Below are positions 33 to 18,078 of a DNA stretch of 64,000 bases, in pieces (within the stretch, counting starts at the first letter, position 1; each line of letters begins with the position of its first letter). The translations under genes were made by a program, and so were the position numbers. This DNA is from Geminisphaera colitermitum TAV2 (GTDB lineage Bacteria; Verrucomicrobiota; Verrucomicrobiia; Opitutales; Opitutaceae): the NCBI RefSeq assembly GCF_000171235.2, contig NZ_ABEA03000005.1:1-64000 (forward strand). Reading direction: 5' to 3'. A model generated the notes under the pieces. It was not told the origin of the DNA, made no database searches, and saw only the letters and a list, made by a program, of their open reading frames with translations.

Positions 33-1322
33 TTATGCTTTGGTTTCTCGGAGGGCTTCGAACATGGCGGTGATGTTTTGCGGGGGGACGTTGGCCATGA
101 TGTTGTGGACTTGTTGGAAGACGTAGCCGCCGGGGGAGGGGATTTGGGGGGTGGTCCAGGTGTGGAGTTGACGGGTGACGTGGGCGCGGACTTCGGCTGG
201 GGAGGCGTGGGGGAGGATGTCGCGGGTGTCGCAGCCGCCGCCCCAGAATACGATGTCGCGGCCGTATTCGCGGCGGAGTTCGGTGGGGTCCATGCCGCGG
301 CAGGTGATTTGCACGGGGTTGATGGCGTCGAGGCCCGCTTCGATGAGGTCGGGGAGGAGGTCGCGGATGCTGCCGCAAGAGTGGAGTTGAACTTTGATGT
401 GTGGGGTGAGTTGTTTGGCGCGTTGCCACATGAGGGCATGGCGGGGTTTGAAGAATTCGCGGTACATGGCGGGGGACATGAAGGGGCCGTTCTGGGTGCC
501 GAGGTCATCGCCGAAGAGGATGATGTCAACATGGGGGCCGACGGCGGCGAGGTAGTTTTCGAGGTTGGAGAGGTGGAGTTGGGTGGCGACGTCGAGGAAG
601 GCGTGGGCTTTTTCGGGTTCGGCGGCCAGGAGCATGAAGAAGTTGTCGTTGCGGTAGAGGTATTGGCCGAGTTCGAAGAGGTTGCCGCCGAAGATGGCGA
701 TGATGGCTTTGTCGGTGGTGGCACGGAGGCGGGCGGCGCCGTCGGCGAGCGCGGTGCGGCCGGCGGGAGTGTTGAGGGGGGTCTGGGGCCCTGGGGGGGA
801 GGCGATGGCGGTCCAGAGGCAGTTGGCGAGGGCGTCGGTGAGGAGCGCAGGTGTGATGTCTGCGGGGGCGTGGGTGTCGAGGGTGGAGGCGAGGGGGTAG
901 CGGGTTTGTTCAAAGTAAATGGCTTCGCGGGGCATGGCGCCGAGGGGATGGCGGGCGGGGGGCGGGCCGTGGAGTATCCAGTCGCCGGATGCGTCGCGTT
1001 CGGGGGAGGCCCAGGCTGGCATCTGGCAGGGGGTGCCGTCGGGGAGTTCCCAGTCGGTCCACCATTGGTCGTCGAGGGCGAAGGCGCGTCCGAGTTCGAT
1101 GGTGTCTACGCCGAAAAGGTCGAGGATGTCGTCATCAACGATGGCGAGTTGTTGAATGGGGTCGTAAACACGGAGGGGGCGGGGGGGGAGGGCGAGGTGT
1201 TTGCGGAGCCGGGTGTAGGCGAGGGCTGCGATGCCGGAGGAGCGGTGTCCGGAGAAGTCAATGGGGGTGCGGTCGGGCTGGCGGTGGTTGAGAGCAGCCT
1301 GGATGCGTTCGAGGGAGGTCAT
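33..1322 (-). CDS. URO-D/MtaA-like methyltransferase family protein
   Basis: About 429 aa, uroporphyrinogen decarboxylase superfamily, closest in style to the methylcobamide:CoM and O-demethylase-associated methyltransferases rather than heme HemE. Visible signs are the N-terminal MTSLERIQAALNHRQPDRTP block and a zinc-site-like pattern of H314-x-C316-G and a GGGC364-D turn near the C-terminus. The start is placed at the Met at 1322 because upstream in-frame codons are low-complexity Pro/Thr/Ser. It is the last gene of GRE module 1, 160 bp downstream of the activase. No corrinoid protein is adjacent, so the methyl acceptor is unknown. Family assignment is fairly sure, substrate is not. Confidence 0.8.
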   Translation of the reverse strand: MTSLERIQAALNHRQPDRTPIDFSGHRSSGIAALAYTRLRKHLALPPRPLRVYDPIQQLAIVDDDILDLFGVDTIELGRAFALDDQWWTDWELPDGTPCQMPAWASPERDASGDWILHGPPPARHPLGAMPREAIYFEQTRYPLASTLDTHAPADITPALLTDALANCLWTAIASPPGPQTPLNTPAGRTALADGAARLRATTDKAIIAIFGGNLFELGQYLYRNDNFFMLLAAEPEKAHAFLDVATQLHLSNLENYLAAVGPHVDIILFGDDLGTQNGPFMSPAMYREFFKPRHALMWQRAKQLTPHIKVQLHSCGSIRDLLPDLIEAGLDAINPVQITCRGMDPTELRREYGRDIVFWGGGCDTRDILPHASPAEVRAHVTRQLHTWTTPQIPSPGGYVFQQVHNIMANVPPQNITAMFEALRETKA

Positions 1323-1386
1323 GGGTAATTTGTGTGGAGGGTGGGTTGGAGGATCCGGTGAGGTGGAGTGATCTTTCGTGGTTTTT

Positions 1387-1429
1387 GTAGAGCAATTGGC
1401 AAGCATTTTGCGAGGTTTTGCGAAAATGC
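1387..1429. promoter_or_regulatory. Putative operator and repeat block upstream of the URO-D-like gene
   Basis: At 1387-1398 stands GTAGAGCAATTG, whose first nine bases are identical to the palindromic site at 4752-4770 beside the GntR-LacI regulator. At 1403-1429 the block TTTTGCGA occurs twice at 10-bp spacing inside an inverted repeat with arms GCATTTT and AAAATGC. This suggests a separate regulated promoter for the methyltransferase gene. A purine-rich G tract fills 1443-1480. Function is inferred only. Confidence 0.35.
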
Positions 1430-1481: not shown

Positions 1482-2346
1482 TTAGTGTATTATCACTGGA
1501 AATACGCAGTGGTTTTGAAAGAAGGTGCGCCATGCGTTTTTAATTTTTAGGTCGGGGAGGGAGGGCGTGATTGCGGGGCGGGGAAGTCCGAGGCGGTCGT
1601 ATTTGGTGAGGCCTGTGGGGTGCCAGGGGAGGATTTCAATGCCGGCTATGCGCGGATAGTCGGTGGCGTGGCCGTGCAATGGCTTCAAGGTGTTCCGGGG
1701 TGTCGTTGATTCCGGGAACGAGGGGGCAACGAAGGATGATGGTGGCTCCGGCATCGTAGAGGGTTTCAAAATTGCGGTGGATGAGGTCGGGGGGGGAGCC
1801 TGTAAGTTTGCGGTGGGTGTGGGGCGCGTCGGGGGTGTTGGTGGCCTTGTAATCCCAGAGGAAGAGGTTCACGTGGGGAGCGAGGCGCGCGTAAACAGCG
1901 GGAGGGGCGCAGCCGGAGGTGTCGAGGCAGGTGTGGATGTTTTCGGCACGGGCGGCGCGCAGGAGTTTTTCGGCGAAAAGGGGTTGATGTGCGGGTTCGC
2001 CTCCGGAGAGGGTGAGGCCGCCGCCGGTTGCGTCGTAATAGGCGCGGTCTTTGCAAATGAGTGGGAGGATTTTTTCGATGTTTGTCGTATGTCCGAAAAG
2101 TTGTGGTTCTTCGCCCGGGCGGGCGGGGGCGGCGTATTGGGGTTGTGGTGACAGAGATTCAGGGTTGTGGCACCAGAGGCAGCGGAGGGGGCAGCCTTTG
2201 AGAAATATCGTGGTGCGGACGCCGGGGCCGTCGTGCAAGGAGCCGCGTTGCAGGTCGAAGATGATGCCCGCAGTGTCATCGTCGGCGATGGTGGCAGGCG
2301 AGATGCGAAGCGTGGTTCGGGAAACGGGTTGCGCCTGGTGGAGCAC
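1482..2346 (-). pseudogene. GRE-activating radical SAM enzyme, apparently frameshifted
   Basis: Radical SAM activase that would install the glycyl radical on the GRE encoded 9 bp upstream. The N-terminal part carries LHDGPGVRTTIFLKGCPLRC, followed by the cluster motif C-x3-C-x2-C, and later a GGGLTLSGGEP SAM-binding stretch. It lacks the two-cluster ferredoxin insertion of longer activases. After HLEAIAR (about 1672) the frame breaks; the expected C-terminus (YPRIAGIEILPWHPTGLTKY and onward) continues in another frame to a stop at 1482. Removing one base of the GGCCAC run near 1665-1672 restores a full-length protein. Either a real mutation or a sequencing error; the short product of 236 aa would lack the last beta-strands. 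Confidence 0.8.
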
Positions 2347-2355
2347 GGGGATGGC

Positions 2356-4650
2356 TTATTCGTTGAGGGTGCGGGCGAGGACTTCGCGCTGGATTTCGGG
2401 GGAGAGGTCGATGAAGCGGGCGCTGAAGCCGCCGACGCGCACGATGAGGTGAGCCCAGTTTTCGGGTTCGCGCATGGCGGCTTCGAGGTCGTTGCGGTTG
2501 ACGACGGTAATCATGGCTTGGGTGCCGCCGGAGGCGAACCAGGCGGAGAGGAGGGCGGTGGTCTTGGCAAGGAGGGGCGGGGTGAAAAGGGAGCGGGCAA
2601 ATTTCATGTTGTGCACGGCTCCGGCATGGTGATGGGCAGGGAGTTTTTTGAGGGAATTGAGGAAAGCGGTGATGCCGCTGCGGTCGCGTCCGGGGGCGGG
2701 GTTGATGGCGTTGGCCATCGGGGCGCCGGCCAGGCGTCCGTCGGGCGAGGCGGGGGTGTTGAGGCCGAGGACGGTGTTGGCGCCGTTGTTGATGACGACG
2801 GCGAGGTAGGTGCGGAGGCCGACGCGGGGGGCCTGAGCCCGGGTGGTCTGGCAGATATGGTCGTGGACGCGGATTGCCATGGCGTCGGCGGTGTCGTCGT
2901 CATTGCCAAATTTGGGGGCGGCGAGGAGGGCGCGGCGGAGGCGGGCGGCAGCAGTGGAGCGGAAGTTGTCGTCGCAGGCGCGGGCGAGTTCTTCGAGGGT
3001 GCAGGTTTTGTGTTGGTAAACGTGGTGGTGGATGGCGGTGAGGCTGTCGGCGGTGTTGATGTTGCCGTAGGTTTCGAGGGTGCCGCCGGGGTGGCGCGCG
3101 CCGCCGGAGTGGAGGGGGGCGTGGCGGGCGGCACAGTCGTCGAAGAGGTGGCTGACGAGGAGAAGGGGGGCGTCGTTGGCGGTGATGTCGTGAGTGATTT
3201 TCTGGTGTCGTGAAAGGGCGGATACGGCGGTTTCGACGTTGGTGGCGTAAGCAGTCCAGAGGGTTTCGAAATCGGGGTAGAGTTCGTCAAGGGGGGGGGG
3301 GGAGGAGGGCGGCGCTGGGGGGTGAAGCGTTTCGTGGAGGAGGTGAAGGAGGTTGATGAGGCCGTTGGGGGAGCCGGTGCCGGAGTGGTCGATTATGTAT
3401 TCGCCACATCCATACGGGATGTAATGGAGGGCTTCTTCGCGGGGGAGATCAAAGGCGGTGGCGACGGCGGGGATGTTGGCGTCGTCGTTGTAGAGAAGGG
3501 GGAAGGTGCGGCCTTCGCCAATGCTGGTGAGTGCGGCGCGCATGAGGGCGGGGTTTTGGCCGCGGTGGAAACGGAGGGTGAGTTGGGGCTGGTTAAGGGG
3601 AACGGTGCGAGTGGCTTCGATGGCGATGAGAGCGAAGCGGTCGGAGGAGCTTTCGTCGGGCCGTCCGAGGCCACCCACGACAATGCGGTTGTTAAACATG
3701 TTGTCATAGGTGGTGGCGATGTGGCGCCAGAAGTCCTTGAGTTGTTCGAGCGCAGCGTCGGGTGTGAGGAGGCCGGCGTCGAGGTCGTGATCGAGGAAGG
3801 GCGCGAGCCAGATGTCCATGCGTCCGTAGTTGACGACGCCGGCGGCGAGGGAGGCGAGCCATGCGAGTTGGATGGCTTCGCGGAGGGTCGCGGGGGGACG
3901 TTGTGTGAGGGCGTCAAGGGTGTCGGCAATGGCGGCGGCGCCACTGGCAGGGTGAGCGCGGGCAAGGGTGCGGGCTTCGGTGGCGTGCCGGCGGATGATG
4001 GCAAGAAGGGTTTCGAGGACGGTGCAGGTGTTTTCCAAAAGGTCGTGCGCGTCGTGTGGGAGCGGGAGGGGGCCGGGGGGGGCGGCGAGTTGGCGTTGGA
4101 TGTTTTGGATGAGGCCGGGGAGTCCGTTGCGAAGGAGTTTTTTGTAATCGAGCGTGATTCCGGCGATGCGGTAGAGGGGGAAGGCGGAGCCGGGGTGGTT
4201 CGGCCAGTTGTCTTCGGGGAGGAGGCGGCGGACGTCTTCGGGGTGGGCGGCACGGATTTTCGCGTGGGTGGTGCGGGTGCGCCAGTAATCGAGCATGTCT
4301 TCGACGTGGCGCCGGTGCGTGGTGTCGATGGTTTGCGACGAGGCGTTGGCAAGGATTTGGCGGATGGGTTTTTCGAGGCAGTAGCAGCCGATGCCCATGA
4401 GCTCGGGGCTGAGGCCAACGAGAGGGTAACGGATGCGTCCGGCGAGAGGATCGCCGGGTTGGAGGGGTTGGAACATGGCGGGGAGTTGAAAGCGAAGGAT
4501 TTCAGCTTCGCGCCGGGCGGGGGATGCGTCATTGAAATGTTGATACGCGTCGGTGATGGCGAGTTCGAGAGAGAGGGGGGGGGCGGCGTCCCAAGGAGGG
4601 GGGAGGGGGCGGAGTTCGAGGGCTGCGGCAATGCTGTGGTCGGTTATCAT
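2356..4650 (-). CDS. Glycyl radical enzyme (PFL-like family), GCGE active-site type
   Basis: 764 aa, typical for glycyl radical enzymes. The thiyl cysteine is C415 in HYIPYGCGEY, with E417 two residues later as in GRE dehydratases, lyases and decarboxylases (the common form is GCVE). The radical-bearing glycine is G741 in RVGGFSARF, 23 residues from the C-terminus, as expected. It therefore catalyses an oxygen-sensitive radical C-O, C-N or C-C cleavage; the substrate cannot be read from the sequence, and PFL itself is unlikely because that has adjacent cysteines. A run of 12 G on the plus strand (3291-3302) encodes a Pro run. The activase gene follows 9 bp downstream, and a GntR-type regulator diverges 130 bp away. 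Confidence 0.9.
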   Translation of the reverse strand: MITDHSIAAALELRPLPPPWDAAPPLSLELAITDAYQHFNDASPARREAEILRFQLPAMFQPLQPGDPLAGRIRYPLVGLSPELMGIGCYCLEKPIRQILANASSQTIDTTHRRHVEDMLDYWRTRTTHAKIRAAHPEDVRRLLPEDNWPNHPGSAFPLYRIAGITLDYKKLLRNGLPGLIQNIQRQLAAPPGPLPLPHDAHDLLENTCTVLETLLAIIRRHATEARTLARAHPASGAAAIADTLDALTQRPPATLREAIQLAWLASLAAGVVNYGRMDIWLAPFLDHDLDAGLLTPDAALEQLKDFWRHIATTYDNMFNNRIVVGGLGRPDESSSDRFALIAIEATRTVPLNQPQLTLRFHRGQNPALMRAALTSIGEGRTFPLLYNDDANIPAVATAFDLPREEALHYIPYGCGEYIIDHSGTGSPNGLINLLHLLHETLHPPAPPSSPPPLDELYPDFETLWTAYATNVETAVSALSRHQKITHDITANDAPLLLVSHLFDDCAARHAPLHSGGARHPGGTLETYGNINTADSLTAIHHHVYQHKTCTLEELARACDDNFRSTAAARLRRALLAAPKFGNDDDTADAMAIRVHDHICQTTRAQAPRVGLRTYLAVVINNGANTVLGLNTPASPDGRLAGAPMANAINPAPGRDRSGITAFLNSLKKLPAHHHAGAVHNMKFARSLFTPPLLAKTTALLSAWFASGGTQAMITVVNRNDLEAAMREPENWAHLIVRVGGFSARFIDLSPEIQREVLARTLNE

Positions 4651-6257: not shown

Positions 6258-6878
6258 ATGAAACACACCCAAACCTCACGGATTGGCCAAAAGGCCGGTT
6301 TGTATTCGTTATTCACGACGGCAATTTTGTGCGTCTTCGTTCTGGCCGCGCTCGTGACAACAGCTCCAACGGTATTCGCCGCCGAAAACCTCATCCCGAA
6401 CGGCGATTTTTCCGCCGCGACCAAAGATCCTGCGTGGCCCGACCACTGGGGAAAAATCAAAACAGGCAAATGTACATGGGAAACCGATGCCGATGGCAAA
6501 AAGTTCATGCGCCTCGAATCCACTGCTCCCGGCCAGACCGTGTTGCAATACCGGGTCATCCTGATTCCCGCCGACGCGAAGGCTGTCGAATTGAGCTGCC
6601 GTGCGCGCGTGACTGGCCTGAAGCGTGTCCCCGGTCAGTGGTTTGATGCGCGAATCATGGCGAATTTTTTGAGCGATTTCCCGACAGGCGCGAAGGTGAA
6701 GGGTGCCAAGCCCGTGGCCTTTAACAAGGATACCGATGGTTGGGTCGAAAAGAAGGTGATGTTCAACGTCCCAGAAGGTGCGAAAGCGATCGAACTCATG
6801 CCGACCTTGTTCCAAGTGGAGGCAGGACAGTTTGATTTGTCAGAGGTCGCATTGCGCGTGATTCCGGTTACTCCATAA
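6258..6878 (+). CDS. Secreted CBM4/9-like carbohydrate-binding protein
   Basis: 206 aa with a hydrophobic N-terminal segment (residues about 15-38) ending in a cleavable VFAAEN-type signal site. The mature part begins with LIPNGDFSAATKDPAWPDHW, the standard opening of CBM4/9-like beta-sandwich modules, and continues as a single domain without a catalytic part. It would bind a glycan or serve as an exported accessory protein. It runs toward the GRE 2 gene (convergent), 145 bp apart; I see nothing clear in that gap. Function beyond binding is not visible. Confidence 0.65.
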   Translation: MKHTQTSRIGQKAGLYSLFTTAILCVFVLAALVTTAPTVFAAENLIPNGDFSAATKDPAWPDHWGKIKTGKCTWETDADGKKFMRLESTAPGQTVLQYRVILIPADAKAVELSCRARVTGLKRVPGQWFDARIMANFLSDFPTGAKVKGAKPVAFNKDTDGWVEKKVMFNVPEGAKAIELMPTLFQVEAGQFDLSEVALRVIPVTP

Positions 6879-7023: not shown

Positions 7024-9321
7024 TCACAATTTTCGCCTGGACAGGATGCGATCCACCACGAGTTGGCGAAATTGCGGCGAGAGCATGGCAAAATAGGAAG
7101 TGAATCCCGTCACGCGCACGATGAGGTCGGGAAACTTCGAAGGGTCCTTGTGCGCCTCAAGCACGCGCTCCTCGTCAATCAGGTTGATGTTCAGCAGCGT
7201 GCAGCCTTGGTCGAACATCGTCTTGATGAGAGCTGTGATTTTTTCAATCGCCTCCGGACTTTCGGCGATGGACGGATCGAGTTCCAGTTGCACTGGCGCC
7301 GTGTTGCCGTAGCCTGGTTGCACGGCGGCGATGGCGTTGACCAAAGCCGTGACCGCGCCGTCCTTGCGAAAGCCGGGCAGCGGATTCGCCCCGTGATTGA
7401 TGGGCTGGCCGGCGCGACGGCCGTTCGGTGTGGCCGAAACCGCCTCGCCAAATTCGATCGTGTTGGCCCAGGAAAAAAGTCCGGGGATGAAATTGTAGTC
7501 GGGATAGCGCCGGTTTTGGTCGCGCACCATGCCACTCCACGTCCCGGTGATCCGCACGGCCCAGCGTTCGGCGCGATTGCCGGTGGCCTGGCCGTAGCGT
7601 TCGCTGCTTTGTAGCATGAGCCGCACACGTTCGCCCTCGATGTCGGGGAAGTTTTTTTCGATATGCCAGTTCACCTCGGCCCAGGTGAGGCAGCCTTCGT
7701 CCGCCACTCGTTGTTCGAGCGCGGCAAACGAATCGGCTACGACGGCGATGCCCGCGCCGTCAATCGCGAGATTGCAATACCGCGCGCCACCGGCGGCCAT
7801 GTCCAAACCTTTTTCGAGCGGACCGTGGCAAAGGAGATTTGTCACCAGTTCCGGCTCGTTGTGCGTTTGGTGGCACATGTGAAAATGGTTTCCATCAGCG
7901 GTCTTTTCCACGGCCACGCGCAGGTGCGCGAGATAGATTTCCCAAAGCCGTTCGAGGCCTGGCGCGGCGGTGCCGTCGTTGGCGGCAGCGAACATTTCTT
8001 TCCATGCGACTTCAAAGACCTTGGCGAGATTCACTTTGACCACGTCGTTGAGCGTGTATTCGAGGCCGGGGAGTGACATCCAGTTGCAACCGACAGCGAT
8101 GCGTTGCCGCGCGAGTTCTTCCGAGTAGCCGGCGCGCATGAACCCGGCCACCAGCGCCTTGTCGCCGCTGAAGCGCGGCCAGCCTTTCTTGTGATGGAAA
8201 AGCAAATACACCCCGCGCCGGAACAGTTCGGGATCGAGGTCGTCGTGAACGCGGATCGTGAGATTGCACGGGCCGTCCATCAATTCGGCGGCATCCAAGA
8301 TGATGTGCGAAATGCGGCTCGTCATGTCGCGTCCGTCCGGGCCGGGACCAGCGAGTTGGTAATACTGCGCGTCAACCAGCAGCAGGCAGGCGATGGTGAA
8401 AGCGGCCTCCTCGTCGTCGATCAATCCGGCGGCGGCATCGCGCTCGTAGTAAGGCCGGAGCAATTCGTCCAACTGGCCGCCCGCGCCGCAGCGGTTGTAA
8501 GTGCGCTTGGCCAACACAAACCACGCGAGCCACTGGCAGGCTTCGCGCAATGTGCGCGGCGCGCCCTCCACTACCCACTCGTTTACAGCTTTCATCTCGC
8601 GCAAATTCTCGCGGAGTCGCGGGTCGGCTTCGGTAGCGAGTTGGCGGTCAACTTCGGCGATGGTGCGACGAATCCAGCCTTGAATCGCCAGCGCGGTGCG
8701 CTCCTCGCATTCATAGAAAACCGCCTTGTCGTGGCCGTTCAAGGCGCGGTAATGCCGAAGTTTTTCCAGAATGCCGCCCCAGCCGAGCCGCAATCCCATC
8801 GCGAGGTCGCAGGCATAGTGCGCGTCGTTGCCGATGCCATGCACGATGTTGTATTTTTCGTGAAAGGGCTTGAGGTGCGTGTATTCAAAATCAGCATTCC
8901 AGATGCAACTGGCCGCGCCGGGTTTTTTGCGCGCCTTTGGGCCGGCGCCATTCGCGTTGTTGGCGCAGGATGGAGCTTTCATTTTGGAGAGATAAAAATA
9001 AGTCTGCCCGGCTAGCGCATCATGAGGGTTGACGTAAACCGGCTGCGCTGCGAGCAGGCTTTCAAAATTCCGAGTCCAGCCCATGAAGCCGTAAAACGAA
9101 CCGTCGGCATGGTTTGGCGTGATCCGCCAGTGGAAGTCCGCCGGGGCGACGTGACGCCCGTAATCGCCTTCGTCCATGCCGCCTTCGTGGTCGATTTTTT
9201 CCTGGGTAACGGTGAGTTTTTTCTCTCTGAGTCGGCGCATCCGTTCGGCGAAGGAAAGCGACGCGAAATTCTCGGCAACGGGATTTTCAGTGATGATCAT
9301 GGCGGCGGTCTGGTTTTTCAT
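7024..9321 (-). CDS. Glycyl radical enzyme (PFL-like family), GCNW active-site type
   Basis: 765 aa. The glycyl radical loop is RVTGFTSYF with G739, 26 residues from the C-terminus. The expected thiyl cysteine is C412 in IAVGCNWMSLPG; the Glu normally two residues after it in dehydratase-type GREs is Trp414 here, and there is no second adjacent Cys as in PFL. It is not closely similar to GRE 1 (2356-4650). An activase follows the same operon upstream (9356-10285), so the enzyme is likely functional in anoxic conditions. Substrate unknown; a C-C bond forming or cleaving reaction that needs no Glu base is possible but speculative. An alternative start is Met8. Confidence 0.88.
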   Translation of the reverse strand: MKNQTAAMIITENPVAENFASLSFAERMRRLREKKLTVTQEKIDHEGGMDEGDYGRHVAPADFHWRITPNHADGSFYGFMGWTRNFESLLAAQPVYVNPHDALAGQTYFYLSKMKAPSCANNANGAGPKARKKPGAASCIWNADFEYTHLKPFHEKYNIVHGIGNDAHYACDLAMGLRLGWGGILEKLRHYRALNGHDKAVFYECEERTALAIQGWIRRTIAEVDRQLATEADPRLRENLREMKAVNEWVVEGAPRTLREACQWLAWFVLAKRTYNRCGAGGQLDELLRPYYERDAAAGLIDDEEAAFTIACLLLVDAQYYQLAGPGPDGRDMTSRISHIILDAAELMDGPCNLTIRVHDDLDPELFRRGVYLLFHHKKGWPRFSGDKALVAGFMRAGYSEELARQRIAVGCNWMSLPGLEYTLNDVVKVNLAKVFEVAWKEMFAAANDGTAAPGLERLWEIYLAHLRVAVEKTADGNHFHMCHQTHNEPELVTNLLCHGPLEKGLDMAAGGARYCNLAIDGAGIAVVADSFAALEQRVADEGCLTWAEVNWHIEKNFPDIEGERVRLMLQSSERYGQATGNRAERWAVRITGTWSGMVRDQNRRYPDYNFIPGLFSWANTIEFGEAVSATPNGRRAGQPINHGANPLPGFRKDGAVTALVNAIAAVQPGYGNTAPVQLELDPSIAESPEAIEKITALIKTMFDQGCTLLNINLIDEERVLEAHKDPSKFPDLIVRVTGFTSYFAMLSPQFRQLVVDRILSRRKL

Positions 9322-9355: not shown

Positions 9356-10285
9356 TCAAGCGATGCGAACCTTGATGCCGTGTTTTGCGGCGACGGCGCG
9401 AAACCGGCCCATGGCCGCCTCGGAAATCATGGGCGCGTCCTTGAGCAGATAGGGTTTGCCCATGCAGCGATATTTGTCTGAGCCGAGCGGATTGTAGGCG
9501 AGCAGTTCATAGTAATCCAATGCGGGCAGCGTGGCAGCAAACATTGCGATGGCCTCGATCGCATTTGCGTTGTCGTTAAAATCGGGAATGACCGGCGTGC
9601 GAACAACCAGCGGCAAATCTAGCGCGCCGAGATGGCGAGCATTTTCGAGGATGCGCTCGTTGGCGACGCCCGTCCATTCGCGATGCGTGACGGAATCCAT
9701 GTGCTTGATGTCGAACATGACCAGATCCAGCAACGGCAGGAGCGATTCGAGCTGTTCCCACGGCACGGCCAGATTCGTTTCGATGGCCGTGTGGATGCCG
9801 CTGGCTTTCAGCAGCGCGAGGGTTTCGAGTGCGAAGTGCGTTTGCACCGTCACCTCGCCTCCGGAAAGTGTCACGCCGCCGCCGGAGTTCGCATAGAAAT
9901 TTTTGTCCTGCAACGCCTCGGCCAGAACATCCTGCGGCGCCACTTCGCGGCCAACCTTCACCAAAGCTTCCGCGTGGCAATCACCCCGGTAATGCCGCGC
10001 CACGCCGGTGTCGTCGGTGAAACACAACGCTGCATCGGCGCTGGCGCCAGCGCCGGATGTATCCGGAGCGGCAAGACAATGTCCGCAACCGATGCACCGT
10101 GAGCGGAAGAACTGAAGTTCGGGACGCGGGTTGATCGTCTCCGGGTTGTGACACCACGCGCAACGCATGTTGCAGCCCTTGCAAAAGACCGTCGTGCGGA
10201 TGCCCGGCCCGTCATGCAGCGCGAACCGCTGGATGTCGGTGATGATTCCGGTGATGACGTGAGCGGCGGGCATGGTTGTTTCCAC
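9356..10285 (-). CDS. GRE-activating radical SAM enzyme
   Basis: 309 aa. The N-terminal HDGPGIRTTVFCKGCNMRC leads into the radical SAM cluster pattern C-x3-C-x2-C. An insertion follows with CIGCGHC and further cysteines, suggesting at least one accessory iron-sulfur cluster as in the long GRE activases. A SAM-binding GGGVTLSGGEV stretch and a conserved C-terminal YYELLAYNPLGSDKY are intact, in contrast to the activase of module 1. It lies 34 bp upstream of GRE 2 on the same strand and would install the radical on G739. The promoter is shared with the divergent AraC gene in 62 bp. Confidence 0.9.
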   Translation of the reverse strand: METTMPAAHVITGIITDIQRFALHDGPGIRTTVFCKGCNMRCAWCHNPETINPRPELQFFRSRCIGCGHCLAAPDTSGAGASADAALCFTDDTGVARHYRGDCHAEALVKVGREVAPQDVLAEALQDKNFYANSGGGVTLSGGEVTVQTHFALETLALLKASGIHTAIETNLAVPWEQLESLLPLLDLVMFDIKHMDSVTHREWTGVANERILENARHLGALDLPLVVRTPVIPDFNDNANAIEAIAMFAATLPALDYYELLAYNPLGSDKYRCMGKPYLLKDAPMISEAAMGRFRAVAAKHGIKVRIA

Positions 10286-10362
10286 GCATCCAGCTTAGTC
10301 CGCGTCCCGACTGCGGGAACGAATCTTGAACGCGCCGCGCAAATTGATTGAATGATCATGCT

Positions 10363-11205
10363 ATGCCAAGCCGCGCCACCAAGCATCTCTATCTCCCCGC
10401 ACGCGACCGTTCGTTTTGGAGAAATGAGGCCAGCGCCGCATTTCCTCTCCTTTATCTGGCTTGGGGACGCCGCGACTTCCATGAGCAAGGCGTTCCCGTC
10501 AGCACGCATGAAGGCTGGGTCTGTGTCTGCATCGAGGAAGGAACCCCCACCATCATTCTGAATGATTGTCCCATCAAGCTCGCCCCCGGCCAGCTCGTTT
10601 TCATACGCGAAAACTGTCCATACGGATGGGCACGCGCCGGACACAAAAGCTGCAAGTTTTTGCTCTGGATGTGGCGGCGCCCCTTGCGTCCGGAACTAGC
10701 CGACATGGTAGACAATGCCAGCGTCATACAAAAAACTCCCGTCGCCCGGCGTCCGCTATGGAATCGGCTTCATGCGATGTGCCGTGAGGAAATCCTGCGT
10801 CAGGATGAGTGGAGCCCCGGCTGGCTTGAGAGTTGCCAGCTCCAGATTGAGGTTCTCCTGCTGCGTTTGATGAAGGCCGTTCCCGAGGAAAAACCCGTTG
10901 CCCACCGCGTTGCCCTCGCGCTGGCGTGGATGCGTCTGCATCCGGACAGTCAGGAGCCCATCGGACGTCTTTGCGACTACTTGGGCCTCTCGCAGCCCAC
11001 GCTTTACCGGCTCTTCAAAAACCAGACCGGTGAAAGTCCGCTCGCCCATTTCCATCGCATCAAGATGAATCGTGCGCGCGAACTCCTCGGCAATCCGAAC
11101 GTTTCAATCAAAGAGGCGGCCTTCATGCTCGGATACCGGCATTTCAATGATTTCAGCCGGGCCTATCGCCAGCACTTCGGTCACGCTCCGTCGCTGATGC
11201 GATAA
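10363..11205 (+). CDS. AraC-family transcriptional regulator
   Basis: About 280 aa. The N-terminal half is a cupin-like sensor (WVCVCIEEGTPTIILNDCPI and the following LAPGQLVFI). The C-terminal 100 residues form the double helix-turn-helix of AraC proteins: IGRLCDYLGLSQPTLYRLFK and then a second helix pair ending YRHFNDFSRAYRQHFGHAPS. It diverges from the GRE 2 operon with only 62 bp between, so it most likely controls that operon. The ATG at 10363 is used; a TTG at 10348 is an alternative five codons upstream. Confidence 0.9.
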   Translation: MPSRATKHLYLPARDRSFWRNEASAAFPLLYLAWGRRDFHEQGVPVSTHEGWVCVCIEEGTPTIILNDCPIKLAPGQLVFIRENCPYGWARAGHKSCKFLLWMWRRPLRPELADMVDNASVIQKTPVARRPLWNRLHAMCREEILRQDEWSPGWLESCQLQIEVLLLRLMKAVPEEKPVAHRVALALAWMRLHPDSQEPIGRLCDYLGLSQPTLYRLFKNQTGESPLAHFHRIKMNRARELLGNPNVSIKEAAFMLGYRHFNDFSRAYRQHFGHAPSLMR

Positions 11206-13283: not shown

Positions 13284-16200
13284 ATGCAGAAAAAAACGCC
13301 CACGATCGCCCACGCTCTTTTTGTAGTTATTTTTTCGATATTCACATCCATCCACGTCGGCGCCGCAGACGGCGTTGGGGATGATCCGCTTGAGGCGGGT
13401 TTTGTGCAACCGCCGCCCTCGGCGCGTCCGCTCACTTGGTGGCACTGGATTAACGGACACGTGAGCAAAGACGGCATCCGTGCCGATCTCGAAGACATGA
13501 AGGCCGCAGGAATCGCGGGTCTCCAATTTCTTGACGTGGACGGTCACGGCCTCGCCGCCGGGCCGATTCGGCACGGTTCGGATGCATGGCACGAAAACGT
13601 TCAATATGCGATTGAAACGGCAACCCGTCTCGGCCTCACGTTTGACATCATGAATTGCGCGGGCTGGTCCACCAGTGGCGGACCGTGGATCACGCCGGAG
13701 CACTCCATGAAAATGCTCGTCTGGAGCGAGACGCCGGTCGTTTCGGAAAACCCGGCGCGAAACATCACCGTGACGCTCCCACAGCCGGAAGCCGTGCGAG
13801 GACTTTACCGCGATGTCGCCGTTATCGCCGTGCCGTCCGATCTCGAATCCGATTCCGAATCCGGCGGGACAGACGCGGCGTTTTCCTGCAACATTATTGC
13901 TGGTCTCGACCCTACGCCGCTTGCCGCCGCCGGAAATACCAAGGCTCTGCGTCTTCCGGCCGACGCGGCCACGCCGTCATTCACCTGGAAATATGCGGAT
14001 GCGCGCGAACGCCGCATGGCGCGCCTCATATTTGGTGACAAACAACAAAAAGGACGGCTCGCCGGACAAATCGAGGCGTCCGACGATGACGGGAAAACGT
14101 TTCGCGATGTTGGCAAATTCGACTTGCAGTTTGGCCACGCCAACACGCGGACGGTTGAAATCAATTTTTCGTCGACCAAGGCGCGGATATTTCGCCTCAC
14201 CTTTCGCCGCGCCACTCCCGACGCCGCGCCCTGGCCGCTTTCGCTCGCCAGCCTTTCGCTCTCAAACGAGGACCGTATCGAAAATTTTCGCACAAAAAGT
14301 TTATCGACCCTCCTTTGGGGACAATTTCCTCAAAAACCCCGCGTCGCCACCGCGTCGTCCGAGGCCGCTTTGCGCCCCGAACAGATTATCAATCTCACCC
14401 AACAATTCTCCGAGGCGAACGGGCGCGTCGAGGCCGCGCTTCCTGCCGGACGCTGGACGCTGTTGCGTTTCGGTTACACGACGACCGGTAAAATCAATCA
14501 TCCCGCGCAACCCGAAGGCCGCGGCCTCGAAGTTGACAAATTCGACGCCTCTGCCGCGCGGTTTCACTTTGAAAAATCCCTCGGGCGTATTCTGGACACT
14601 GCTGCCGCTCGTAATGGAAAATCGGTGACAGGCGTGCTGGTGGACAGTTGGGAGGCCGGTTTGCAAAACTGGACGCCGACGTTTCCCGACGAATTTCGCG
14701 AACGGCGCGGTTACGATTTGCTGCCGTGGTTGCCGGCCCTCGCAGGTCGCGTGATCGGTTCCGTCACGGAGACTGATGCCGTGTTTCGCGACTTTCGCCA
14801 GACGGCCTCCGATCTCGTGGCTGAAAACTACTACGGTACGCTCCGAAAGCTGGCCAACGCGCAGGGACTCAAACTCTACACCGAACCCTACCACGGGGGG
14901 GCGTTTGAGGAGTTTCAGGCGGGCGCGCAGGCGGATGTCGTCATGACCGAGTTCTGGGTGAGCAACTGGGATGAGCATTCGAAGCGCGTCAAAAAAATGG
15001 CATCACTCGTTCACAGCTTGGGAAAAAATGTGCTTGCGGGAGAAGCATTCACCACAATGCCCGAAGCCGGACGCTGGCGACAGACTCCCGGCAATCTCAA
15101 ATACTACGGCGACCGCGCCTTTCTCGAAGGACTCAACCGCATCGTGTTTCACACCTACGTCCACCAGCCGCGTTCCGACTTGCAGCCCGGTTTCACTCTG
15201 GCGCGCTGGGGCAGTCAGTTCGGGCGGCTCAACACTTGGTGGACGCTGGGCGCACGCGCATGGACCGACTACCTCGCCCGCTCGCAATGGCTGCTGCAAC
15301 AGGGCCATTTTGTCGGTGATGTGCTTGTCCTGAAAACTGTCGGCATAAATACGCTGGAAGGTCCCAGCTATTCTCCGGTTTTCCCTGATGGTTACGCGTG
15401 GGATTTCATCGCGCCGGCCCAACTGAAGGACGCGAAGGTCGGGGGCGGATACGTGTCGCTGGCAAACGGTGCGAGTTATCGCGTCGTTTTTCTGCCGAAC
15501 TCGTGGGTGGCGGATGTTTCGCTTTTGCGTTGTTTGGAAAAACTCTGGCAAGCCGGCGTGCCGGTTTTTGGTCCGCCGCCCAGCGCCCCCTCTGGACGCA
15601 ATGATATCACCGGGGAGCGCGCCGAGTGGGATCGTCTGCTGAAAAAACTCTGGCACGAAGAACGCGTCCACAAAGGCGGCGAAATTGATGCATGGCTCCG
15701 CAAAAACGTCCCGCCCGATTTTACCACACTCCCCCCCCCCCCCTCCACGCGCGCCGGAGTTGACAATGCGAACACGAACGCGCCACTCCCCTTGCGTTAC
15801 GTTCACCGGAGCGTGTCCGGCGGCGACGCGGAAATCTATTTCGTTGTGAACAGCAATCCGTATCCGGTTTCGACCCGCGCCACTTTCCGCGAAAGCACAG
15901 GCCGCGCCGAAATCTGGAATCCGGTTAGCGGTGAACGTCACGCGGCTGGCGTTTTGAGAAATGAAAACGGCCACGCCACCGTCGAACTGAATCTGGACGC
16001 GATGGAATCGGTATTCGTCGTTTTTCGCAAAAAGCAGGGAACGTCTCCGTCCTCGCTCGCGCCCGCTGATGACACCGGCGGCGCAGATGGCAAAACGCTC
16101 GTGCTGGACGGCCCGTGGGAAGTGGAGTTTCGTCCGCCCATCCGAAAAGCTTTCACGCGCATTTTTCAAAGACTGGAAGCATGGAATGAGTCCGCCGATT

Positions 16201-16682
16201 CCGACGCGCGCTATTTTTCCGGAGCCGCCGTTTATCGCGCGGAGTTCTTGAACAAAGGCGGCGCAGATGGACGGCGCGCGGAGTTGTTGCTTGGCGAAGT
16301 GTGCGACATCGCCGCCGTCCGCCTCAATGATCGTGATCTGGGTGTGGCCTGGACCGCGCCATGGAGGTTATCGATTCCCGCCGGTGTCTTGCGCGAAGGT
16401 GCGAATAAAATCGAGATCACGGTCGCGAATCGTTGGGTTAATCGTCTCATCGGCGATGAAGCACTTCCGCTCGACGCCCGTTATACGACATCGAGCGATT
16501 ACCGCGCCGATGCTTTGTTGTTGGAATTGCCCGCGTGGTTCAATGACCCCGCAGCCGTGGCCAGACGCGAACGACAAACATTTTCCACATGGCGCGCTTA
16601 CACCAACGTTAACGAACCTCTCTTGAAGTCCGGTCTGCTCGGGCCTGTTTCCATCCGCATTTTTGCGGACAGGGAGGAATGA
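13284..16682 (+). CDS. GH106-like alpha-L-rhamnosidase, secreted
   Basis: 1132 aa with a signal peptide (residues 1-27, ending VGAADG). The opening RPLTWWHWINGHVSKDGIRA and AGIAGLQFLDVDG are characteristic of the Glyco_hydro_106 family, known for alpha-L-rhamnosidases acting on pectic and other rhamnose-containing glycans. The C-terminal part (about residues 935-1080) looks like a GH2-type jelly-roll (GPWEVEFRPP, later AVRLNDRDLGVAWTAPWRLS). A tract of 13 C at 15731-15743 is in frame and encodes a Pro run. It likely acts in the periplasm or outside, first in a plus-strand row with the MFS transporter, the lyase and the deacetylase. Catalytic residues are not assigned here. Confidence 0.85.
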   Translation: MQKKTPTIAHALFVVIFSIFTSIHVGAADGVGDDPLEAGFVQPPPSARPLTWWHWINGHVSKDGIRADLEDMKAAGIAGLQFLDVDGHGLAAGPIRHGSDAWHENVQYAIETATRLGLTFDIMNCAGWSTSGGPWITPEHSMKMLVWSETPVVSENPARNITVTLPQPEAVRGLYRDVAVIAVPSDLESDSESGGTDAAFSCNIIAGLDPTPLAAAGNTKALRLPADAATPSFTWKYADARERRMARLIFGDKQQKGRLAGQIEASDDDGKTFRDVGKFDLQFGHANTRTVEINFSSTKARIFRLTFRRATPDAAPWPLSLASLSLSNEDRIENFRTKSLSTLLWGQFPQKPRVATASSEAALRPEQIINLTQQFSEANGRVEAALPAGRWTLLRFGYTTTGKINHPAQPEGRGLEVDKFDASAARFHFEKSLGRILDTAAARNGKSVTGVLVDSWEAGLQNWTPTFPDEFRERRGYDLLPWLPALAGRVIGSVTETDAVFRDFRQTASDLVAENYYGTLRKLANAQGLKLYTEPYHGGAFEEFQAGAQADVVMTEFWVSNWDEHSKRVKKMASLVHSLGKNVLAGEAFTTMPEAGRWRQTPGNLKYYGDRAFLEGLNRIVFHTYVHQPRSDLQPGFTLARWGSQFGRLNTWWTLGARAWTDYLARSQWLLQQGHFVGDVLVLKTVGINTLEGPSYSPVFPDGYAWDFIAPAQLKDAKVGGGYVSLANGASYRVVFLPNSWVADVSLLRCLEKLWQAGVPVFGPPPSAPSGRNDITGERAEWDRLLKKLWHEERVHKGGEIDAWLRKNVPPDFTTLPPPPSTRAGVDNANTNAPLPLRYVHRSVSGGDAEIYFVVNSNPYPVSTRATFRESTGRAEIWNPVSGERHAAGVLRNENGHATVELNLDAMESVFVVFRKKQGTSPSSLAPADDTGGADGKTLVLDGPWEVEFRPPIRKAFTRIFQRLEAWNESADSDARYFSGAAVYRAEFLNKGGADGRRAELLLGEVCDIAAVRLNDRDLGVAWTAPWRLSIPAGVLREGANKIEITVANRWVNRLIGDEALPLDARYTTSSDYRADALLLELPAWFNDPAAVARRERQTFSTWRAYTNVNEPLLKSGLLGPVSIRIFADREE

Positions 16683-16731: not shown

Positions 16732-18078
16732 ATGGCACCTATGTCCGAACGCGTTTCCCCCATGAATCCTCCGCCCTCCGCTCCTGCCGATGCCCGGCTA
16801 AGTCCTGACACCGGAATCATCACCCGCCAGCAATGGAAATGGTCCGCGCTCGCCGGCATGGCCTCCTATCTTGACGCCGGCTCCATCGTCGCCCTCGGCG
16901 CCGGCCTCGCGCTGTTTCAGACCTACCTCGGGCTGACCGACCGCGCGATCGGTTTCCTTGGCGCGATCGGTCCCAATGCCCTCGGTTGCGCCATCGGCGC
17001 CATTTTCGGCGGCTGGCTTGGTGACAAGCTTGGTCGCAAGTTTATCTACCAGTACGACCTCATGGTCTATGCCGCCGGCATTCTGTGCATCGCTCTGGCC
17101 ATAAACTGGCCGATGCTGCTCGTTGGAACCTTTGTCGTCGGCCTTGCCGTGGGCATTGACGTGCCCACCTCCCTCGCGCTGGTTGGCGAGCTTGCCCCGG
17201 CCAATGCCCGCGGCAAGTTGCTCGGCTTCACCCAAGTCGCGTGGAGCTTGGGCCCCGTGATCGTTCTCGTGCTGGCATGGCTGCTCACTCCCTTCAACGA
17301 AGGCGAGGTACTCGGTTTCAAAATTATCGGCGCTCGCATCGTCTTTCTGCATCTCTTCGTCGCCGCTGTCGTCACATGGGCGCTGCGGCGCGGCCTGGCC
17401 GAGTCCGTCCGTTGGAAAAACGCCGCACGTTCAACGACCAAAGCCCAGCGTCAGATACGCAATCTTTTCAGAGGTGCCAATCTTCGCGCCCTTGTCTGGA
17501 CGGGAGCGATCTACCTTTTCTGGAATCTCGCCGCCGGCACCGCCGGGCAGTTCAACCCCTACATCATCAGCACGCTCAACGCCGGCAGTCAGGGGGCCAG
17601 TGTGCTGGTCTCCAGCGCGAATTTCATCATGGCCATGATCATTACGATCACGGTTTTCATGCGGTTTTCCGACCGCGGTTTCAAGACTCGCAAGACGCTC
17701 TGGGCCATAGGCGCGGTCACGCAGGTCATCAGCTATGGACTGTTCCTTGTTTTTCCGCTGACCATGACCACGGCGCTCCTGAATATCGCGCTCTTTGGCG
17801 GCGGCTGTGCGCTGGCCGGCGAGGCGTTCTACAAGGTTTTCAGCCAGGAACTTTTTCCCACGATCCTGCGCGGCACCGCGCAAGGTTTCACCTTTGGAAC
17901 GGCGCGGACGCTGCTTGCCATCTGGAGTTTCTTTGTGCCGATGCTGGCCCACACCGACCTTCGCCTGATCGCCGGGCTGCTCACACTGTTTCTCCTGATC
18001 AGCGGAGCAGTCGGCTTCTTTTTCATGCCCGACACCTCCGGCAAGTCGCTCGAACAAATCGAGGCCGAACGCGCCTGA
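16732..18078 (+). CDS. MFS sugar transporter
   Basis: 448 aa with about 12 membrane segments. The loop between segments 2 and 3 holds the MFS signature GGWLGDKLGRKFIYQYD, and the pattern GIDVPTSLALVGELAPANAR resembles sugar and inositol porters. The central cytoplasmic loop (about residues 222-245) is basic. It lies 49 bp after the rhamnosidase gene and 61 bp before the lyase gene, and is probably the inner-membrane uptake step for a mono- or oligosaccharide released by them. Several Met codons near the N-terminus (16732, 16741, 16762) could be the start. Confidence 0.85.
   Translation: MAPMSERVSPMNPPPSAPADARLSPDTGIITRQQWKWSALAGMASYLDAGSIVALGAGLALFQTYLGLTDRAIGFLGAIGPNALGCAIGAIFGGWLGDKLGRKFIYQYDLMVYAAGILCIALAINWPMLLVGTFVVGLAVGIDVPTSLALVGELAPANARGKLLGFTQVAWSLGPVIVLVLAWLLTPFNEGEVLGFKIIGARIVFLHLFVAAVVTWALRRGLAESVRWKNAARSTTKAQRQIRNLFRGANLRALVWTGAIYLFWNLAAGTAGQFNPYIISTLNAGSQGASVLVSSANFIMAMIITITVFMRFSDRGFKTRKTLWAIGAVTQVISYGLFLVFPLTMTTALLNIALFGGGCALAGEAFYKVFSQELFPTILRGTAQGFTFGTARTLLAIWSFFVPMLAHTDLRLIAGLLTLFLLISGAVGFFFMPDTSGKSLEQIEAERA

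Follow-up and report, generated by a model that had tools for sequence, protein, structure and literature searches.

Glycyl radical enzymes (GREs) are oxygen-sensitive. Can an eliminase-like GRE work without the glutamate of its Cys-x-Glu (CXE) motif, and if so, how? The CXE glutamate is regarded as a mark of the GRE eliminases, the majority of which are considered to use it as their base, and the question is raised here by a GRE that we refer to as GRE2 and by the widespread clade to which it belongs, in which this position is held by a fixed Trp. In those parts of their texts that were accessible, two studies describe the CXE motif as conserved among GRE eliminases (PMC8473560, PMC7077986), with the Glu of most of them hydrogen-bonding the substrate hydroxyl and proposed as the base, while that of HypD is essential in a role other than that of a base; the E470Q variant of isethionate sulfite-lyase is described in the former as inactive (PMC8473560). 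GRE2 is encoded in the stretch of 64,000 nucleotides of Geminisphaera colitermitum TAV2 that was analysed as a whole (the window), and the features of its surroundings are collected in Table 1.

Table 1. GRE2 and features of its surroundings in the window
Feature	Coordinates	Strand	Remarks
Secreted protein, carbohydrate-binding-like domain	6258..6878	plus	convergent with GRE2; no Pfam family
GRE2, glycyl radical enzyme	7024..9321	minus	Cys412-Asn-Trp414 replacing Cys-x-Glu; radical Gly739
Radical SAM GRE-activating enzyme	9356..10285	minus	34 bases upstream of GRE2, same strand; TIGR02494
AraC-family regulator, cupin-like N-terminus	10348..11205	plus	divergent from activase
GH106 alpha-L-rhamnosidase-like protein	13284..16682	plus	PF17132, E 8.2e-176; context, functional link to GRE2 putative
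MFS sugar transporter-like protein	16732..18078	plus	PF00083, E 5.6e-27; context only

The 765-residue translation of GRE2 matches the Pfam families PFL-like (E 1.3e-79) and Gly_radical (E 4.2e-12) and carries both hallmarks of the GRE superfamily, the catalytic Cys and a radical Gly in the pattern RVxG[FWY] (here RVTGF), which are kept in all 43 aligned rows of the clade described below. The thiyl cysteine lies within IAVGCNWMSLPG, in the context GCNWMSLPG, and the radical glycine within RVTGFTSYF. A sequence-only reading had placed C412 in a Cys-Asn-Trp motif and G739 in this radical loop; the translation bears out both, and for the former a HMMER alignment to the B12-independent glycerol dehydratase (1r8w) agrees, placing C412 opposite Cys433 and W414 opposite Glu435. 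The same CNW is present in relatives from other genomes (L007/G046 and L008/G076, with 84-86% identity to GRE2) and a Trp stands two residues after the Cys in 43/43 clade rows, so a sequencing error is an unlikely source of the GRE2 Trp and was rejected. Four shorter fragments (L033, L045, L082, and L083) also have Trp at this position; the gene of the first (G319:C18:2855-5011) contains an in-frame TGA within the matched region.

The clade was assembled from relatives at the family level (8 of 150 genomes, E <= 1e-60), at the phylum level (21 of 387 genomes, E <= 1e-120), and, at the latter threshold, in the phyla of a Planctomycetota member (4 of 246) and an Armatimonadota member (10 of 151), the starting genome being included in each count. 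Of seven further loci taken from genome contigs, six fall in the clade and one (L024) lies outside it. Members are distributed among the Verrucomicrobiota, Planctomycetota, Armatimonadota, and Bacteroidota, and two are plasmid-borne, in Flammeovirga and Persicobacter. Members reach 602-1296 bits with the clade profile, a fragment (L015) that does not span the Cys loop scores 540, and the next GREs score 116-214. The residue alignment left out the clade rows of less than 630 residues (L015 and the four fragments named above) as well as the non-clade GREs L001, L002, L004, and L024, and the residue between Cys and Trp is Asn, His or, in L037, Gln. Duplicate sequences were collapsed but near-identical pairs (e.g., L035/L036, L042/L043, and L080/L081) were retained, and the 43 rows are therefore not 43 independent events. 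On the sequences read, Trp414 is a fixed feature of the clade and no oddity of GRE2.

The expectation that most non-PFL GREs have a Glu two residues after the Cys, also voiced in the earlier reading, holds in both control sets. Among the 30 Bacillota loci read, out of 35 matches to the eliminase-type model TIGR01774, all 24 non-PFL GREs have Glu at this position and the other six are PFLs with CCVS. In three clade-bearing genomes (G888, G758, and G253) the Glu is present in 19 of 20 other GREs, the sole exception being a Gln in L229 of G888 (GCMQ, with the radical loop RVGGFSARF). Cys-x-Trp is confined to the clade among the GREs read, and other exceptions to CXE do exist elsewhere, as in the plasmid-encoded GRE of Peptoclostridium acidaminophilum (L114:988-3357), in which CVV replaces it.

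All 45 Cys-x-Trp sequences group together on a long stem, with a support of 100/100, in a phylogeny of 56 rows. The clade does not fall within any of the eight enzymes used as references, in a tree without X-succinate synthase (XSS) sequences, and its position relative to these and other GREs has a support of only 30/94, with long branches flagged. For all 12 NCBIfam models that it matches, GRE2 stays far below the cut-off, the best score being 215.4 bits against 678.2. It reaches 167.4 bits with the PflD model NF007437 (PRK09983; cut-off 1109), 65.1 bits with the PFL model TIGR01255 (cut-off 994.2) and 157.6, 123.2, 162.8, 97.7, and 87.5 bits with the HypD, CutC, HpsG, IAD, and HPAD equivalogs, respectively, the cut-offs of which are 1000-1150 bits. 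With these scores we rejected an assignment of GRE2 to PFL or to a named eliminase; the Cys-Cys pair of the PFL type is also absent, since Cys412 is preceded by Gly411. The best match among sequences with solved structures is PflD (150.5 bits, E 4e-43); PFL matches more weakly (64.7 bits), as do the XSS enzymes MasD (46.1 bits) and TutD (43.7 bits), the latter two with partial coverage. No XSS alpha model is among the 12 NCBIfam models, and the gaps of 34 and 145 bases that flank GRE2 contain no gene for an FeS accessory subunit, so that an XSS was likewise rejected as far as solved-structure similarity and the adjoining genes tell.

The suggestion, made from the GRE2 sequence, that it represents a separate GRE subclass is strengthened by the fully supported clade, the invariant Trp, the NCBIfam scores and the position outside the eight references, and, as far as the comparison extended, GRE2 fell into neither an XSS-like nor a PFL-like subclass. 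Among the papers listed by a literature search, judged by title and abstract opening and with subscription journals largely outside it, none describes a Cys-x-Trp GRE, and the clade may lie among the uncharacterised clusters of a published GRE network, to judge from the accessible part of that article (PMC6453916). It is well supported by sequence comparison that the clade is a real, apparently undescribed subfamily of GREs whose active-site hallmark is changed and which is matched to no named family.

The structure predicted for GRE2 from an alignment of nine sequences (pTM 0.80, overall pLDDT 75.3) has the PFL-like fold, as GREs fill the top ranks of the structural comparison with Z scores of up to 28.8. 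The list is headed by PflD (8yjo, Z 28.8 over 649 residues; 8id0, with 1,5-anhydromannitol-6-P, Z 28.5); a number of other eliminases come within 1-2 Z units of it, and the XSS enzymes BSS and MAS, which share the fold and the catalytic Cys and Gly, follow at Z 23.2-25.3. The Gly loop (residues 730-743) is modeled with a pLDDT of under 50, too poor for the model to tell which acid or base faces the substrate.

In addition to Cys412, Trp414, and Gly739, both His168 and Asp426 are invariant in all 43 rows, and the alignment to 1r8w pairs them with His164 and Asp447, which we take to be active-site positions of glycerol dehydratase. Hence the CXE Glu is gone and two other positions of the dehydratase site are kept. 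PflD also carries His and Asp at these positions, and HypD has a His at the former, its His160 being called essential in the accessible part of its description (PMC7077986). All rows of the clade also share Arg407 and Asp521, which no reference GRE of the eight has, and Glu421 (43/43), which two of them have, Pepto_GRE (CVV) and Fuso_GRE (CVE); the likewise invariant Glu491 and Asn711 are also found in PflB.

Several known systems resemble GRE2 in part. The GRE eliminases, including glycerol and propanediol dehydratases, CutC, HypD, and IslA, have in common with it the Cys loop, the Gly loop, an activase, and the fold, but the CXE motif is missing from the GRE2 clade. PflD and YbiW, which according to the accessible text of a review cleave 1,5-anhydromannitol-6-P and 1,5-anhydroglucitol-6-P (PMC12441222), have the GRE fold and act on a sugar-type substrate, as is suspected for GRE2, and PflD is its top match in both sequence and structure; they differ in having Cys-x-Glu in place of Cys-x-Trp, and PflD is about 20% identical to GRE2. 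The XSS enzymes show a lower similarity of partial coverage (43.7-46.1 bits), and no accessory subunit gene adjoins GRE2. The aminoacyl radical enzymes are, like the Cys-x-Trp clade, an offshoot of the GREs with a changed hallmark residue, but as far as their description was accessible it is the radical Gly that is replaced in them (PMC11528403), whereas GRE2 keeps the Gly and has lost the Glu of the Cys loop.

The gene next to GRE2 encodes an activase that scores 310.8 bits with TIGR02494 (cut-off 174.35), and from homology and adjacency we infer that it activates GRE2. It had been taken for a complete activase, and the radical SAM motif CX3CX2C, read by eye, and the TIGR02494 score agree with this; its ferredoxin-like insert, however, lacks by eye the two canonical CX2CX2CX3C motifs that are present in, for example, the activase of L052. 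The closely related activase of L099 appears by eye to be similarly reduced in its insert, unlike that of L052.

Across the clade the supply of activases is less uniform. In 27 of the 42 clade loci besides the window an activase lies within 1 kb on the strand of the GRE, and the other 15 are without one nearby; some of these are short contigs, and six (L062, L087, L088, L091, L093, and L101) have no nearby activase within stretches of 18-20 kb. Each of the 21 genomes tested, the 15 with these loci among them, encodes an activase somewhere (TIGR02494 above its cut-off), and the idea that such loci come from genomes with no activase was therefore rejected. The activase supply was examined at loci L202-L221 and L227-L246. 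Among 20 stretches around activases, 11 contain no recognised GRE within 4.5 kb and 7 contain a GRE or GRE fragment, and in the other 2 (L208 and L214) no activase was located in the stretch although the genome-wide search places one there. Nine genomes (G888, G843, G849, G758, G820, G762, G414, G647, and G253) have 8-14 PFL-like matches, fragments included, versus 1-5 activase matches. The single activase match of G888, G843, and G849, near a contig end in the first two, adjoins no recognised GRE, while these genomes have 9, 10, and 10 PFL-like matches, respectively, with fragments counted separately. No activase was found in the 6-9 kb stretches of 20 further GREs of G888, G758, and G253 in a search of ORFs of at least 250 residues with an HMM built from the clade activases; two of the nine G253 matches are outside that set, and one of these (contig C146) has an adjoining activase match. 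It is therefore likely that one activase is shared by many GREs in some of these hosts, which makes an adjoining activase a weaker argument for function across the whole clade and, if correct, means that the picture of one dedicated activase per GRE needs revision. Beside the sole activase match of G758 is an ORF of 147 residues (L205:10206-10646) with the glycyl radical loop RVGGFSARF, in which a pattern search found no Cys loop, and which is either a partial GRE or a spare radical domain.

The neighbors of GRE2 had been considered to give no clear substrate. No single substrate is fixed by them, in agreement with this view, but they are not without information. In each of the three closest relatives read (L066/L007, L018/L008, and L019/L099), a homologue of the AraC-type regulator lies divergently to the GRE operon, with a cupin gene between the two in L099. 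The carbohydrate-binding-like domain of the convergent gene, of which the genome has one further copy, is present in two copies ahead of a GH5 cellulase in L063, at a distance of about 4 kb from the GRE; no other of the 42 loci has a match to the domain. Heparinase-like, LacI, GntR, and fucosidase genes likewise follow or flank in the window, along with the GH106 and MFS sugar transporter genes. Genes for Gfo/Idh/MocA dehydrogenases are found in 19 of 42 clade loci versus 2 of the 20 controls (p 0.009 in a Fisher test), or 31 genes in 652 kb versus 5 in 400 kb (four of these in one stretch), although the HMM was built from the neighbors themselves, which biases the count toward the clade loci, these loci differ in length and come in part from closely related genomes, and such genes are common in these phyla. 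As controls, 20 stretches, each 20 kb long and picked by round coordinates, were taken from nine of the genomes that carry the clade loci. In 14 of the 42 loci the Gfo/Idh/MocA gene is on the GRE strand within 1.5 kb; in the window none is among the genes adjoining GRE2. One cluster of cupin-like proteins is represented in 7 of 42 loci and in 0 of 20 controls, again with a self-built HMM. Of 20 chosen neighbors four match no Pfam family, and Pfam confirmed Gfo/Idh/MocA, xylose-isomerase-like TIM barrels, a ManA-like cupin, GH47, GH130, GH106, BNR/sialidase-like, and beta-helix proteins among them, with fusions of TIM barrel and Gfo in L052 and L071. The neighborhoods of the clade vary, and together they point to carbohydrate without fixing one common substrate.

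We tentatively propose, giving it a little less than an even chance, that GRE2 is a working member of a carbohydrate-directed GRE subfamily in which the CXE base has been given up and proton transfer is carried out by other residues. The activase would install the radical on Gly739, which in turn would generate the thiyl radical on Cys412 as in other GREs. The gene context and the nearest solved relative, PflD, make a polyol, keto-sugar, or anhydro-sugar derived from carbohydrate the most likely substrate, ahead of small diols, choline, or amino acids. With Trp414 in the place of the CXE Glu, the residue at that position cannot deprotonate a substrate hydroxyl. The base must then sit elsewhere, unless the reaction needs none; the mechanism of the clade probably differs from that of the CXE eliminases. 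Next to the thiyl, the sugar ring may stack on Trp414, and the kept His168 and Asp426, perhaps together with Glu421 or Asp521 (both invariant in the clade), would carry out proton transfer. The likely outcome would be the cleavage of a sugar C-O bond or a rearrangement of the sugar, linked in some hosts to the action of a Gfo/Idh/MocA dehydrogenase. The clade also points to an unrecognised anaerobic sugar route in glycan-degrading bacteria. A bolder and rather doubtful version is that it represents a new GRE reaction class for unphosphorylated plant or algal sugars or sugar acids, in which a ring stacked on Trp414 and the absence of a ketyl-forming Glu base would give a deoxy-keto or rearranged sugar to be passed to Gfo/Idh/MocA, some members relying on a shared, distant activase.

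The most serious competitor, to which we would give a real if minor chance, is an ordinary eliminase (dehydratase or lyase) that uses the known ketyl-radical elimination with its base moved to Glu421 of the Cys loop or to Asp521. Both residues are invariant in the 43 rows, His168 and Asp426 are kept, and the closest relatives in sequence and fold are eliminases; on the other hand, with the Gly loop so poorly modeled no model puts Glu421 or Asp521 near the substrate, and Glu421 is not a specific replacement, as Pepto_GRE and Fuso_GRE share it with their CVV and CVE motifs. The loss of the Glu would also be expected of a GRE that is no eliminase but forms or breaks C-C bonds, by an XSS-like addition or a PFL-like cleavage that needs no CXE base, and the six Bacillota control PFLs (CCVS) have no Glu there; yet the similarity of GRE2 to eliminases exceeds that to PFL (64.7 bits) and to XSS (43.7-46.1 bits), it does not have the PFL-type Cys pair, and the 34- and 145-base gaps beside it are too small for an accessory subunit gene, all of which makes such chemistry unlikely.

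Still less likely is a radical isomerase or epimerase of sugars, limited to hydrogen abstraction and return. Such an enzyme would need no base to replace the Glu, and isomerase-like TIM barrels, a ManA-like cupin, and other cupin-like proteins do occur near some members, but this context is only suggestive and we know of no radical isomerase or epimerase among the GREs. That the clade consists of catalytically dead or non-radical proteins with the PFL fold, as the 15 of 42 loci without a nearby activase might indicate, is very improbable given that Cys412 and Gly739 are invariant in 43/43 rows and that an activase above the TIGR02494 cut-off is held by 21/21 genomes, including the 15 behind those loci.

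The window encodes a further GRE, GRE1, on the minus strand (2356-4650), with the Cys loop GCGE and the radical loop RVGGFSARF, and a second GRE of this type is found at G000:C216 (L004). The activase gene that adjoins GRE1 (window 1482-2346, minus strand) appears to be interrupted by a frameshift, either real or an assembly error, as the frame at 1636-2346 stops early and the expected C-terminal part is in an overlapping ORF at 1482-1769. It is followed by a gene of the URO-D family (33-1406, minus strand).
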